A stretch of 40,524 nt of DNA from Chloroflexota bacterium (GCA_030609055.1 JAUWCZ010000007.1:1-40524); one strand, 5' to 3'. Counted from the first letter of the stretch, positions 1,575 to 15,874 are shown. The notes: generated by a model from the letters alone, not told the origin. Made by a program: numbers and translations.

Positions 1575-2456
1575 ATGGATCCAATTATTTTTACAATTCC
1601 GGGTACCAATATTTCACTGCATTGGTATGGCTTAATTATGGCCGTTGGGATTATCCTGGCCGGGATGGTTGCGGAATGGGGTGTCCGGCAGCGGGGCGAG
1701 GATGGTGAACATATCTGGGAACTGTTGGTATGGGCGGCTCCTGCTGGTATTGTAGGTGCCAGGTTATGGTACGTATTGAATGATATTCTTGGAGGTGGGC
1801 AGTATTATCTCGACCATCCCTTAAGTATTATCAACCTTCCTGAAGGCGGCTTGCATTTTTACGGAGCTGTCTTGTTTGGTGCTCTTGGAGCATTCGCCTA
1901 CGTGAAAAGAAAGGGACTGGATTTCAGAATTTTTCTTGACGCTGCAGCACCGGCACTTCTGATTGGACAGGCACTTGTTAGACCAGCAAATTTTATCAAC
2001 CAGGAACTTTATGGTCCACCGACAGATCTGCCCTGGGGAATTGCCATAGACGCCTTCCATCGCATCCCGCCCTGGACAAATTTAACCCTCTATCCAGTGG
2101 AAAGCACACGATTCCATCCAGCATTTGCCTATGAAATGTTGTGGAATTTTCTGGCGACCGGTATCCTGTTATGGATCTTCCTGGAATTGAAAGATAGAAT
2201 CAAACCGGCTTCGCTTTTCGCTGGTTGGCTTGTTTTGGAAGGAATTGGCAGAGAGATCATTGAATTCTTCCGTCCTGATCAACCCCGTGTGCCCGGAACG
2301 GATATCAGCTATTCTCGCATCGTTGCGGGGGTGATGATTCTGGTGGGTATTTTCTGGCTGCTGATTAAGTATGAGATCATCAAGCTTCCTTTCCTTGAGG
2401 CAGGACCAGAAAAATATATAATATCTCCTGCTGCTAAGAAAGGTAAGCGAAAATAA
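1575..2456 (+). CDS. lgt: Prolipoprotein diacylglyceryl transferase
   Basis: Lgt is a polytopic membrane enzyme that moves diacylglycerol from phosphatidylglycerol to the lipobox cysteine of prelipoproteins. The protein starts MDPIIFTIPG and has ISLHWYGLIMAVG, the Lgt-typical N-terminal segment with the conserved His and Tyr. A glycine-rich segment containing GARLWYV, then LPEGGLHFYG, follow. A later stretch RPANFINQELYGPPTDLPWG matches the Lgt signature (R-x-[GA]-N-F-x-N-x-E-x-x-G). Several hydrophobic helices are visible and the 293-aa length is normal. An ATG 30 bases upstream is in frame, but AGGAGG at 1565-1570 sits correctly for the 1575 ATG. Two lipoproteins in this window (the convergent neighbour and the flavin-transporter binding protein) would be substrates, as would the lipoprotein in the ccm cluster. 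Confidence 0.95.
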   Translation: MDPIIFTIPGTNISLHWYGLIMAVGIILAGMVAEWGVRQRGEDGEHIWELLVWAAPAGIVGARLWYVLNDILGGGQYYLDHPLSIINLPEGGLHFYGAVLFGALGAFAYVKRKGLDFRIFLDAAAPALLIGQALVRPANFINQELYGPPTDLPWGIAIDAFHRIPPWTNLTLYPVESTRFHPAFAYEMLWNFLATGILLWIFLELKDRIKPASLFAGWLVLEGIGREIIEFFRPDQPRVPGTDISYSRIVAGVMILVGIFWLLIKYEIIKLPFLEAGPEKYIISPAAKKGKRK

Positions 2457-11813: not shown

Positions 11814-13457
11814 ATGCCGAATCTGAGACACAGCCTTTCCCGGATGGATTTTAACCATCTTAAAATTGTGGCGGAAAAATGGAGGTTGCCTTTTTCTGCA
11901 CCGGATGCTCGGGAAGGATTAAATCAGCTGGTTGACCAGATGCTGAACCCCGATCTCCATCAGAGGATTCGCGAAGTACTTTCCTCTCAAGAGTTAGAGG
12001 CGTTAAAATGGCTTGATGCGCAGGGTGGAAGGGAACAATGGTCTCACTATATCCGACGTTTTGGAGATCTAAGGGATATGGGAGCCGGAAGACTGGATCG
12101 CGAGCGGCCGGATCAGGATCCAATTTCGCCAGTCGAAGGTTTATGGTATCGGGCGCTTGTTGCCCGGGGATTTTTTGAAACAGACACAGGTCCTTTGGAG
12201 TTTGCATATATCCCAGACGATATACGGGATATCGTGATGCGCGTTTTACAGTCAGAGATCAATTCTCCTCAGCATCGGGAATTCCAATGCAGAAAAGCTA
12301 CCACGCGAGAAAAGAAGCATCTTCAACGTGCTTCCGGAATTTGCTTGGATCATATCTGCACTCTTCTAGCCGCTTTGCGGATGAACCTGGATCCCGATGT
12401 CCAATTGTCTGATGTACCGCTAGATGAGACTGATTTCTATCTGACTCTTTTTCCAACCATGGATTTATTGGGAGAAAATGGAACTCCCGCCCCGGAGAAA
12501 ATACGGGAATACTTTGATCACCCCATTGCAGAGGCGTTGTTAGAGCTCTGGCAGTCCTGGCGAACGAGTGAATCAAATCCTGACCTTGCTCTCATTCAGG
12601 ATCTCCAGATTGAGGGAAACCCGGAATTGTATCCAAGGAGAGTTCGGGAGTTTGTGATTGACCTTCTAAGTTGCCTGGATCCTGATACCTGGTGGAGCAT
12701 TGAATCGTTTATATCCCAGATTAAGGATCAATACCCGGATTTCCAGCGTCCCGGAGGTGATTACGATTCCTGGTTCATAAAGCGTCAGACCACTGGAGAG
12801 TATTTAAGAGGGTATCATCACTGGGATGAAGTAGAAGGCGCCTTAATAAGGTATTTACTTTCTGGACCACTGCATTGGTTGGGATTGCTTGATCTGGGGC
12901 TACCAAAAAAGGATGCCGAACCGGCGGCTTTCCGGTATTCTTCCTTTGCCGCTGATTTATTAGAAAATCAACCTCCTCCTTTACCATCCAGGGCAATTGA
13001 GCAGGTTCAGATTCGTGCCAAAGGGGAAATCCGGATGACCCTGGATGTGCCGCATAAAGTCCGCTACCAGGTTGCCAGATTTTGCGAATGGCAGCCCGTG
13101 AAGGGGGAAGCCTATCTATACACAATTTCTCCGGCATCATTACGCGGGGCGGAAAAACAAGGATTGCGAGTGGCTCATTTATTATCTCTGCTGAAACTTC
13201 ATACTGACTCCATACCACCGAATATTCTCGCAGCCCTGGAACGGTGGGAGAAACAAGGTGTTCAGGCGTCAATCGGGAATAAACCAATTTTGAGATTGGG
13301 GTCCCCCGCAGTATTGAAGTCTCTCAACAAAACGAGGGCAAGCCGGTTTATTCTGGAACAGCTTGGACCCACGGCAGTGATTATCCGCGAAGGTAGCGAA
13401 GATAAGATTAAAGAAGTACTGGTTGAATTAGGATTCTTTTTGGAACTTGAGGATTAG
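11814..13457 (+). CDS. Helicase-associated-domain protein (Helicase_C_3/XPB-like type), no motor
   Basis: This 547-aa protein has no Walker motifs and no signal peptide. Its N-terminus (LSRMDFNHLKIVAEKWRLP, then QELEALKWLDAQGG) is a winged-helix-like domain. The C-terminal part, IEQVQIRAKGEIRMTLDVP onward and especially SIGNKPILRLGSPAVLKSL through LEQLGPTAVIIREGS to the end, matches the layout of the 'helicase conserved C-terminal' (Helicase_C_3) proteins of Actinobacteria and Chloroflexota. There it is seen beside XPB/Ssl2-like helicases. The role is unknown; a DNA-binding accessory function is the usual guess. It follows the lipid kinase gene by 11 bases and overlaps the end of the convergent methyltransferase gene by 4 bases. 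Confidence 0.6.
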   Translation: MPNLRHSLSRMDFNHLKIVAEKWRLPFSAPDAREGLNQLVDQMLNPDLHQRIREVLSSQELEALKWLDAQGGREQWSHYIRRFGDLRDMGAGRLDRERPDQDPISPVEGLWYRALVARGFFETDTGPLEFAYIPDDIRDIVMRVLQSEINSPQHREFQCRKATTREKKHLQRASGICLDHICTLLAALRMNLDPDVQLSDVPLDETDFYLTLFPTMDLLGENGTPAPEKIREYFDHPIAEALLELWQSWRTSESNPDLALIQDLQIEGNPELYPRRVREFVIDLLSCLDPDTWWSIESFISQIKDQYPDFQRPGGDYDSWFIKRQTTGEYLRGYHHWDEVEGALIRYLLSGPLHWLGLLDLGLPKKDAEPAAFRYSSFAADLLENQPPPLPSRAIEQVQIRAKGEIRMTLDVPHKVRYQVARFCEWQPVKGEAYLYTISPASLRGAEKQGLRVAHLLSLLKLHTDSIPPNILAALERWEKQGVQASIGNKPILRLGSPAVLKSLNKTRASRFILEQLGPTAVIIREGSEDKIKEVLVELGFFLELED

Positions 13458-14176
13458 ACAGGTTCCCAAACCTGATAGAGACTTAAATCTCCTTCTTTCC
13501 CATCTGAATAAAAAGAATCCTTGATACGAAATCCTGTTTGATCAGCCAATTGGGATAGTTCCTCAGGTGAAAAATGATGAACATAGCGGATACCTTTCCC
13601 ACCTCGCTTCCAATCAAGCAGGTAATCACCCTCTTCAAGGGCATTTTCGGAAATACCAGCTTCACTCCAGGGGATAATTTTGCGCTTTAGTCGCTCACTT
13701 TTCAAAAACTGCCAATTTGAGTGATAAAATATCCCCCGGTCGGAGATCAGATGGCGGATATTTCTACAAACCTTTAATCGCCCTTGACTACCAGGAATAT
13801 GATGAAGTACGGCAAGTGATAGGACAATATCAAAGGGAGTTTCCGGTAAAATACGCTGCCAGGAAGGTTCTAATAAATCTAGCTGGATAAACTCTGCCGG
13901 GAAATCCCCAGGAATATCAAGGGTTGCTTTTTGAAGAAGATTGGAGCTGAAATCTGTCCCAAGATATGTGCCGGGAAATCCCTTTCTAGCCAATTCACGA
14001 GCTAGTCCTCCGTTGCCGCAACCTAAATCCAGGATGCTGCTCTCAGGTTGGAAGAGGTCGAGTAGGCGCAGAACCCCAGGTTGAAGACGCTGCCTGGTTT
14101 CAGAAAAATCTTCCGCGAAGTTTTGGTAAAATTGATAATTGAGGTCCTGAATCTTATCAGCCGTCTCAGAGTCCAT
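13454..14176 (-). CDS. Trm9/ALKBH8-like class I SAM methyltransferase (probable tRNA wobble-uridine methyltransferase)
   Basis: The 240-aa protein carries SAM motif I ILDLGCGNGGLA (about residues 48-59), an acidic residue at the end of strand 2 (GTDFS), and a motif IV/V region VLSLAVLHHIPGSQGRL. The N-terminal helix YQNFAEDFSETRQRLQPGV matches the 'Y..IA..FS.TR....P.V' start of Trm9 and the ALKBH8 methyltransferase domain. The 'AVLHH' motif and the late RYVHHFSPEEL (Trm9: RY.H.F..GEL) strengthen this. Trm9 methylates cm5U34 in tRNA to mcm5U34. The next gene, divergent and 81 bases away, is Elp3, whose activity generates cm5U34, so the context supports the call. A generic ubiquinone- or small-molecule-type methyltransferase remains possible. 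A perfect -10 box just upstream suggests a leaderless mRNA. Confidence 0.75.
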   Translation of the reverse strand: MDSETADKIQDLNYQFYQNFAEDFSETRQRLQPGVLRLLDLFQPESSILDLGCGNGGLARELARKGFPGTYLGTDFSSNLLQKATLDIPGDFPAEFIQLDLLEPSWQRILPETPFDIVLSLAVLHHIPGSQGRLKVCRNIRHLISDRGIFYHSNWQFLKSERLKRKIIPWSEAGISENALEEGDYLLDWKRGGKGIRYVHHFSPEELSQLADQTGFRIKDSFYSDGKEGDLSLYQVWEPV

Positions 14177-14183
14177 GGATAAT

Positions 14184-14189
14184 ATTATA
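14184..14189 (-). promoter_or_regulatory. -10 box of a probably leaderless methyltransferase promoter
   Basis: On the minus strand a perfect TATAAT ends 7 bases before the ATG at 14176, with no Shine-Dalgarno sequence between them. Transcription would start at or next to the ATG. The -35 region is weak (no good TTGACA match at 16-18 bases). Confidence 0.5.
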
Positions 14190-14257
14190 CGCTATGGGCC
14201 TGAGCACAGTACGGTGGCCAATCGATCGGTTAACCATTTTCCTGGTGGATAGATGGT

Positions 14258-15874
14258 ATGAAAAATAAAAAGAGTGACGGAAATTCTACAGGAATACCCC
14301 TTTACAGTGAGGTCGAATTGTATCTGGCGGAACTTACGTTAAGGGAGATTGAGGCTGGGAAAGATGTGTTCCAGGCAATTCGTGGTCATCCGCTGCCAGA
14401 TGGAGATGGATTTTTAAGTAAACATACCCTGATCACTGCCTACCGCAACCAGGTGAGAGATGGAATCCGCCAAGAAGATCGTAATTTGCTGAAAAAGATC
14501 CGCCTAAAACCAATGCGGACATTATCCGGTGTGACAACGGTGACAGTTCTTACCAAACCATATCCTTGTCCGGGGCAATGTATCTTTTGCCCGGATTATG
14601 AAGAGATGCCGGTTAGTTATTTGCCTGATGAACCGGGGGCAATGCGGGCTCTCTTCCATCAGTATGATCCATTCACGCAGGTGACATCCCGGATTGAAGC
14701 GCTGCATGAAATAGGTCATCCCACTGATAAAATTGAACTCCTTGTGCTGGGAGGTTCTTGGACCGCGTATCAGGATGAGTATCAGTCCTGGTTCATCAAA
14801 CGCTGCTTTGATGCCATGAATGGTACGGAAGCAGAGACATTGGCACAGGCTCAGAGTTTAAACGAGCAAGCACAACATAAAAATGTTGGCTTGGTACTGG
14901 AAACCCGTCCGGATTTAATTTCCCGAGATGAATTAGCTCGAATGAGAATATTAGGTGTGACAAAAGTCCAGCTTGGTATCCAGAGTCTTGATAATAAAAT
15001 CTTGGAACTCAATCACCGAGGACATACCGTTGAAGAAGCCCGGCACGGTGTTGCTTTACTGCGAGCAGCTGGTTATAAAATAGTTTTACATTGGATGCCC
15101 AATCTACTGGGAGCGACACTGGACTCTGACCGGGAGGATTTCAACCGTTTGTGGGATGATATCGCGCCGGATGAAATCAAGATTTATCCTACACAGCTCC
15201 TCAAGGATACCCAGCTGTATGATAAATGGAAGCGGGGGGAGTATAAACCTTATTCGACGGAAGAATTAATTCAACTCATCACCGATATAAAACCCACCAT
15301 TCCCCGCTACTGCCGTGTAAACCGGGTGGTGCGCGATATTCCTTCCCAGAATGTTGTGGCAGGGAACAAACGGACAAGTTTACGCCAGGATATCCAGGTT
15401 GAGTTAAAAAGCAGAGGGGAAATTTGTTTATGCATTCGCTGCCGGGAAGTACGTGATCAGGAAATTGAGATCAAATCCCTGGTGTTGAATGATCTTATTT
15501 ACACCAGCACTGGTTGTGAAGAACATTTCCTTTCCTTTAACACACCTGATGATCACCTGGCTGGCTTTTTACGTCTTTCCCTGCCGGGTTCAAATGCAAT
15601 TGATACTGGAATAAAGGATCTGGATCATGCGGCGATTATCCGGGAGGTTCATATTTATGGCCAATCTCTCCCTGTTGGGCAGGAAAGAGATGGTGCTGCC
15701 CAACATGCAGGTTTAGGAACAGCACTGCTGGCAGAAGGGGAAAGAATTGCTGCAGAAAAGGGTTTCCATCGAATCGCTGTCATTTCCGCAGTAGGCACCC
15801 GCCAATATTATCTTGACCGAGGGTATAAACGAGGGGACCTTTACATGGTGAAAGAAAACCTGAACAGATCCTGA
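14258..15874 (+). CDS. elp3: Elp3-like tRNA uridine-34 acetyltransferase (radical SAM + GNAT)
   Basis: Elp3 uses acetyl-CoA and a SAM-dependent radical to make cm5U at tRNA wobble position 34. Order: a helical N-terminus, then a radical SAM core with C104, C108 and C111 in PCPGQCIFCPDY. Next comes the Elp3-typical segment LPDEPGAMRALFHQYDPF and VLGGSWTAYQDEYQSWFIKRCFDAMNG, then the barrel with TRPDLISRDELARM and KVQLGIQSLD. The C-terminal GNAT domain (about 400-538) contains QHAGLGTALLAEGERIAAEKG and ISAVGTRQYYLDRGYKR, the acetyl-CoA site and the YY near the active centre. The 538-aa length matches bacterial and archaeal Elp3. The divergent neighbour is a Trm9-like methyltransferase. No other Elongator subunits are present, as expected for prokaryotic Elp3. 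Confidence 0.93.
   Translation: MKNKKSDGNSTGIPLYSEVELYLAELTLREIEAGKDVFQAIRGHPLPDGDGFLSKHTLITAYRNQVRDGIRQEDRNLLKKIRLKPMRTLSGVTTVTVLTKPYPCPGQCIFCPDYEEMPVSYLPDEPGAMRALFHQYDPFTQVTSRIEALHEIGHPTDKIELLVLGGSWTAYQDEYQSWFIKRCFDAMNGTEAETLAQAQSLNEQAQHKNVGLVLETRPDLISRDELARMRILGVTKVQLGIQSLDNKILELNHRGHTVEEARHGVALLRAAGYKIVLHWMPNLLGATLDSDREDFNRLWDDIAPDEIKIYPTQLLKDTQLYDKWKRGEYKPYSTEELIQLITDIKPTIPRYCRVNRVVRDIPSQNVVAGNKRTSLRQDIQVELKSRGEICLCIRCREVRDQEIEIKSLVLNDLIYTSTGCEEHFLSFNTPDDHLAGFLRLSLPGSNAIDTGIKDLDHAAIIREVHIYGQSLPVGQERDGAAQHAGLGTALLAEGERIAAEKGFHRIAVISAVGTRQYYLDRGYKRGDLYMVKENLNRS

Follow-up and report, generated by a model that had tools for sequence, protein, structure and literature searches.

The present analysis identified, in a 40,524-nucleotide stretch of DNA from a Chloroflexota bacterium (the window), a gene pair that probably encodes a bacterial, Elongator-free route from cm5U34 to mcm5U34, made of two enzymes and standing in for MnmE/MnmG. 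The pair consists of elp3 and of a gene encoding a Trm9-like methyltransferase:

13454..14176, minus strand: Trm9-like SAM-dependent methyltransferase (240 aa), predicted cm5U34 carboxyl methyltransferase
14177..14257, no strand: divergent intergenic region between the start codons of the methyltransferase gene and elp3 (81 bp)
14258..15874, plus strand: Elp3 (538 aa), radical SAM and KAT/GNAT, predicted cm5U34 synthase

In the proposed pathway, Elp3 alone, without other Elongator subunits, would carboxymethylate C5 of U34 to cm5U34 by SAM radical chemistry with acetyl-CoA. The Trm9-like methyltransferase would then esterify the carboxylate of cm5U34 with SAM, yielding mcm5U34. With the thiolase MnmA, mcm5s2U34 would be formed in tRNA-Lys, -Glu and -Gln, and this route would take the place of MnmE/MnmG. 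We infer the enzymatic activity, the substrate, the product (mcm5U) and the tRNAs concerned by analogy, the first step (cm5U34) resting on archaeal and eukaryotic biochemistry and the second (esterification) on yeast Trm9 and ALKBH8. The earlier note on this DNA, which had proposed a candidate bacterial mcm5U34 pathway, is supported by the pairing and by the profile and tree placement, with mcm5U as the expected product. Its description of mcm5U as a mainly eukaryotic modification has to be corrected, since this base is also assigned to archaea (PMC7694415, PMC6367351). The open-licence literature, searched for Elp3 with Patescibacteria, Chloroflexi and CPR, contains no description of the pair in bacteria; it may have been described elsewhere.

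Both ORFs have the positions and strands initially proposed and are divergent, with 81 bp between their start codons. By its sequence, the protein encoded at 14258-15874 is unambiguously a standard Elp3: it reaches 506.9 bits to TIGR01211 (curated cut-off 350) and matches the crystallised Elp3 of Dehalococcoides (DmcElp3) with an E-value of 7.5e-116. Its CX3CX2C cluster is intact (C104/C108/C111), and its GNAT domain, which lies under the cut-off of Pfam, nevertheless aligns fully to DmcElp3; both features had been named in the earlier note. Residues K77, K193, E386 and Y441 of DmcElp3 and its three zinc cysteines (C390/C392/C395 in the window Elp3) are all present. Its predicted role as a cm5U34 synthase acting on tRNA is drawn from archaeal Elp3 (PMC13315578). 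A promoter scan of the intergenic region (14177..14257) gave matches at chance level. On its other side, the methyltransferase gene is convergent with, and overlaps by 4 bp, a gene (11814-13457, plus strand) whose 547-aa product contains a weak Helicase_C_3/XPB-like segment; most relatives from the same family have a homolog of this protein at that position, whereas none was found there in the other families of the class that were sampled.

The second protein is a class I SAM methyltransferase for which Pfam and NCBIfam give generic methyltransferase matches only. It falls far under the cut-offs of the NCBIfam equivalogs UbiG (34.7 vs 103), BioC (28.5 vs 185) and CmoM (17.9 vs 366). The Trm9 motifs previously pointed out in it, i.e. 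the FSxTR N-terminus, AVLHH and RYVHHF, are indeed present and are kept in its orthologs. AVLHH alone is weak evidence because it is common in many class I methyltransferases; the informative Trm9 motifs are FSxTR, the DYLLDW block and RYxH. Identity of the family to Trm9 is only about 20-30%, and the result of PDB searches depended on the breadth of the query. With the single window sequence, Trm9 was retrieved with an E-value of 5.6e-4 and several generic enzymes ranked higher; with a profile of 20 close orthologs, Trm9 was ninth. With a profile of 32 diverse orthologs, YlTrm9 (5cm2) was first among 177,635 PDB sequences (E-value 8.9e-14), its alignment spanning positions 25-221 whereas the other matches listed mostly cover the SAM-binding core. 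Trm9 was thus singled out by the broader profile only. In hhalign comparisons, the ortholog profile matched Trm9/ALKBH8 with an E-value of 1.6e-22 over columns 6-226, compared to 8.8e-10 over columns 30-152 only for CmoM of Escherichia coli. The sequences of ScTrm9 and human ALKBH8 that were used are approximate, the yeast version matching YlTrm9 at 247 bits.

An independent scan of genomes of 85,000 species was seeded with eukaryotic Trm9/ALKBH8 only and used two strict peptide patterns. Its top two matches, the bacterial loci L079 and L080, are also the top scorers for the profile of the window family; elp3 lies divergently alongside in L080, and on another contig of the same genome for L079. 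The yield of this contig scan otherwise consisted mostly of generic methyltransferases and, with these two strict patterns, contained no archaeal Trm9 ortholog. A Trm9-only profile built on three sequences gave 29-57 bits to members of the class to which the window belongs (Anaerolineae), compared to up to 48 bits for generic methyltransferases, and thus scores the former about as the latter. Judging from the sequences, the link with Trm9 is clearest through Patescibacteria and Dehalococcoidia. The names Anaerolineae and Dehalococcoidia are used here by inference from the placement of DmcElp3.

Phylogenetic analyses point in the same direction. In a first tree, Trm9/ALKBH8 grouped with the window family (95 SH-aLRT), leaving BioC, UbiG, UbiE and CmoM outside; the grouping with UbiE/BioC-type enzymes that would have contradicted the initial proposal was thus not observed. 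In a more careful tree, Trm9 and the window family were separated from generic methyltransferases and CmoM/BioC with a support of 94/93, which became 91/88 after addition of Dehalococcoidia, one long-branched generic row (L100) then falling inside the family. UbiG and UbiE were omitted from the careful trees because of their long branches. Overall, the trees give moderate support to a family that includes Trm9 and excludes generic enzymes. With a p-AU of 0.787, a placement of Trm9 outside the bacterial family could not be rejected; therefore, eukaryotic Trm9 may be either nested in this family or sister to it.

Yeast Trm9 provides a reference for the active site, since its affinity for tRNA and its catalysis are strongly affected by mutation of R29, H115, R241, Y243 or N271 (PMC5372719). 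In the window methyltransferase, R28 corresponds to R29, H125/H126 to H115/H116, D184..W189 to the QDVxVPW block and R197-Y198 to R241-Y242, whereas V199 replaces Y243 and a serine replaces N271. R241, Y243 and N271 were placed by motif because the ScTrm9 sequence used is two residues short of the published numbering, and the N271 position was judged by eye from the C-termini. Among sequences of the window's class, R29 (32/32), H115 (31/32) and R241 (32/32) are conserved; Y243 is usually a valine, and N271 is mostly replaced by serine, glycine or alanine, the deep-branching L047 and L048 having an asparagine. Patescibacteria keep R29 and R241 (31/31 each), a tyrosine at Y243 in 15 of 31 sequences and the C-terminal asparagine motif (N271) in 29 of 30. 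Dehalococcoidia keep R29, H115, R241 and Y243 in all 21 sequences and, in all but one, have an RNIC motif where Trm9 has DNWW, at the N271 position. This distribution indicates that, out of the five residues making up a fuller Trm9 site, two were lost in the lineage of the window; therefore, the geometry or the substrate may differ in the window protein and in most Anaerolineae. The methyltransferases of the class also share a conserved SDG...Y tail, which is a feature of their own.

An AlphaFold model of the window methyltransferase, built from a three-sequence alignment (mean pLDDT 80), predicts with good pLDDT two strands (184-188 and 196-200) matching the two-stranded lid of YlTrm9 as described in PMC5372719, which is supportive. 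A Foldseek search of the PDB with this model ranked 5cm2 (Trm9) third; since the fold is common, this rank is supportive rather than discriminating. Two peculiarities were noticed in members of the family. The Trm9-like proteins of Dehalococcoidia (L049-L069, e.g. L054:792-1472, minus strand), which nonetheless keep the Trm9 active-site residues, have an asparagine instead of D50, the first aspartate of SAM motif I, in 21/21 cases. The ortholog L032 (G129:C1:3883008-3883709) has a reported in-frame TGA.

The elp3/methyltransferase neighbourhood is conserved in relatives, namely in Anaerolineae, Dehalococcoidia and Patescibacteria, so that the pair is by no means special to this genome. In the same family as the window, the methyltransferase gene was found in 20 of 21 genomes, each time next to a divergent elp3, a pairing far beyond chance. 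Among the 301 Chloroflexota genomes sampled, those of the window's class comprise 28 with both genes, one with Elp3 only, none with the methyltransferase only and 10 with neither; all 24 adjacent pairs are divergent, and the two genes are unlinked in the assemblies of four genomes. The sole genome of the class with Elp3 and no detectable Trm9-like methyltransferase alongside (G209; L070, L207) has an Elp3 of the same subclade. All 21 Elp3 loci examined in Dehalococcoidia carry a divergent homolog (87-106 bits to a mixed profile), which led us to reject the idea that Elp3 outside the class occurs without the methyltransferase. These homologs had been missed in a first survey because of its cut-off (E<=1e-20 with the A1 profile). 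The Elp3s of two of these loci, L054 and L060, are within a few percent of DmcElp3. Of 240 Patescibacteria, 68 encode the methyltransferase (with bimodal scores), 89 Elp3 and 65 both, with 57 adjacent pairs that are all divergent and have a median gap of 133 bp. For this co-occurrence, a nominal Fisher p of 2e-34 was obtained, shared descent being ignored. Altogether, 49 of the 52 Elp3-positive genomes sampled in Chloroflexota and 65 of the 240 Patescibacteria possess the pair.

No further partner gene is consistently found beside the pair. The window's genome encodes a Trm112-family protein (G000:C97); Trm112, the eukaryotic activator, is equally present in genomes devoid of the pair and does not track the methyltransferase. 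In the Elp3 tree, the window's class joins Patescibacteria (100 SH-aLRT), apart from Dehalococcoidia, although these belong to the same phylum. The same split is seen in the methyltransferase tree, Anaerolineae grouping with Patescibacteria away from Dehalococcoidia, and the patescibacterial genome L173 encodes close relatives of both the Elp3 and the methyltransferase of the class type. Taken as a whole, these phylogenies suggest that the pair probably travelled, or was retained, as a unit.

The distribution of Elp3 also relates to that of the usual bacterial U34 enzymes. MnmG was above cut-off in none of the Elp3-positive genomes tested, nor was MnmE in any Elp3-positive Chloroflexota tested; MnmE matches below cut-off were discounted since they cover the GTPase region only. 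Among 53 Chloroflexota genomes, MnmE and MnmG were both above cut-off in only two, both devoid of Elp3, and among the 240 Patescibacteria, the six that carry MnmG have neither Elp3 nor the methyltransferase. However, exclusion is only part of the picture because many genomes have neither Elp3 nor MnmE/MnmG above cut-off: eight of the class (G054, G145, G169, G225, G275, G289, G296 and G317) and most of 148 Patescibacteria. MnmA is encoded by the window's genome and by 24 of the 25 genomes tested; C2 thiolation is therefore expected and the final base would probably be mcm5s2U. From gene identities, conserved residues, divergent pairing and co-occurrence to the exclusion of MnmG and the presence of MnmA, these observations are all made at the sequence level.

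Other functions of the methyltransferase can be envisaged. It might act on the product of Elp3 and make something other than a simple methyl ester. The replacement of Y243 and N271 in the Anaerolineae core would then mark a changed substrate, for instance a cm5U that is hydroxylated or extended in another way. The class-own SDG...Y tail would also fit such a change, as would the distribution of the two residues, Dehalococcoidia keeping both and Patescibacteria keeping Y243 partly and N271 mostly. However, R29, H115/H116, R241 and the D....W / RY lid block show little or no variation, and the lack of a consistent further partner gene beside the pair also speaks against this reading, which we consider unlikely. 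A generic small-molecule or protein methyltransferase merely adjoining elp3 would account for the exclusively generic Pfam and NCBIfam matches and for the enzymes ranked above Trm9 by the single-sequence PDB search. It appears slightly less probable still, given the divergent pairing in three bacterial groups, the co-occurrence of the two genes even where they are unlinked, the Trm9-specific lid motifs and the profile and tree placement. Finally, the pairing alone leaves the substrate unnamed, so that the methyl group could go to Elp3 or to another protein of translation instead of tRNA. This is very improbable, as the methyltransferase retains residues that influence the binding of tRNA by yeast Trm9 and as the expected product of Elp3 bears exactly the carboxylate that Trm9 esterifies. 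Esterification of cm5U34 by the Trm9-like enzyme is thus our preferred reading.

In Patescibacteria that have Elp3 only, a stand-alone asparagine-synthetase-like PP-loop protein adjoins elp3 in 5 of 19 cases:

L200:954-1805, minus strand: asparagine-synthetase-like protein by elp3
L201, about 1641-2433, plus strand: asparagine-synthetase-like protein by elp3
L203:425-867, plus strand: asparagine-synthetase-like protein by elp3
L206:319-1134, plus strand: asparagine-synthetase-like protein by elp3
L213:1536-2324, minus strand: asparagine-synthetase-like protein by elp3

Four of these genes are divergent from elp3 and one is codirectional; the three proteins that were scanned match PF00733 at 102-128 bits. 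Among the elp3 loci examined that are linked to the methyltransferase gene, none carried such a gene. A carboxylate is the group that asparagine synthetase adenylates and amidates. Since such a reaction is needed for the conversion of cm5U to ncm5U, the asparagine-synthetase-like protein is a candidate for this step, whose enzyme has been called unknown (PMC7694415). It can tentatively be proposed that, in bacteria devoid of MnmE/MnmG, the partner of elp3 decides the fate of cm5U34: mcm5U with the Trm9-like enzyme (Anaerolineae, Dehalococcoidia and many Patescibacteria) or ncm5U with the asparagine-synthetase-like enzyme (some Patescibacteria lacking the methyltransferase). If this rather doubtful scheme were true, the amidating step that is missing from the cm5U pathway would be carried out by this PP-loop enzyme.

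About a hundred of the genomes surveyed, belonging to two bacterial phyla, carry the elp3/methyltransferase pair, which seems to substitute for the pathway usual in bacteria. As a prediction, this pair would extend the ester-type wobble base to two large bacterial groups and would supply a functional partner for the crystallised Elp3 of Dehalococcoides. It would also amount to a compact pathway of two proteins, compared to the 15 or more that are involved in yeast.

Compared to known systems, the pair would share with MnmE/MnmG the C5 modification of U34, by an unrelated chemistry (aminomethyl series for the latter); MnmG and Elp3 occurred together in no genome tested. CmoM, the cmo5U34 carboxyl methyltransferase of E. 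coli, is likewise a class I enzyme of bacterial origin, forming a methyl ester on a C5 carboxylate of U34, but its likeness to the window family is limited to the SAM core and it is separate in trees. DmcElp3 from Dehalococcoides mccartyi (PDB 5l7j, 6ia6) belongs to the same family as the window Elp3, which keeps all its key residues, and a divergent Trm9-like gene is likewise present at the loci of its very close relatives. However, the window Elp3 belongs to another subclade, and the open-licence papers on DmcElp3 describe Elp3 alone. The archaeal sets of Sulfolobus and Haloferax (HVO_1032/HVO_2888), likened here by description rather than by sequence, similarly combine a stand-alone Elp3 and a Trm9 homolog, using a Tuc1/Ncs6-type thiolase whereas the window's genome has MnmA. 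The genes of Elp3 and Trm9 are clustered in S. solfataricus (PMC2584109), and (m)cm5U34 has been reported in H. volcanii (PMC2584109, PMC5372719). The closest enzymes would be yeast Trm9-Trm112 and the methyltransferase domain of ALKBH8, both known as tRNA cm5U34 carboxyl methyltransferases. They differ from the window enzyme, which is bacterial, is a divergent partner of elp3, has no long insert and, like the Anaerolineae core, has Y243 and N271 replaced. They share with it the class I fold, the FSxTR N-terminus, R29, H115 and R241, the HH after strand 4, the W after strand 5, the D....W then RY.H lid hairpin and, if our reading holds, a position downstream of Elp3.
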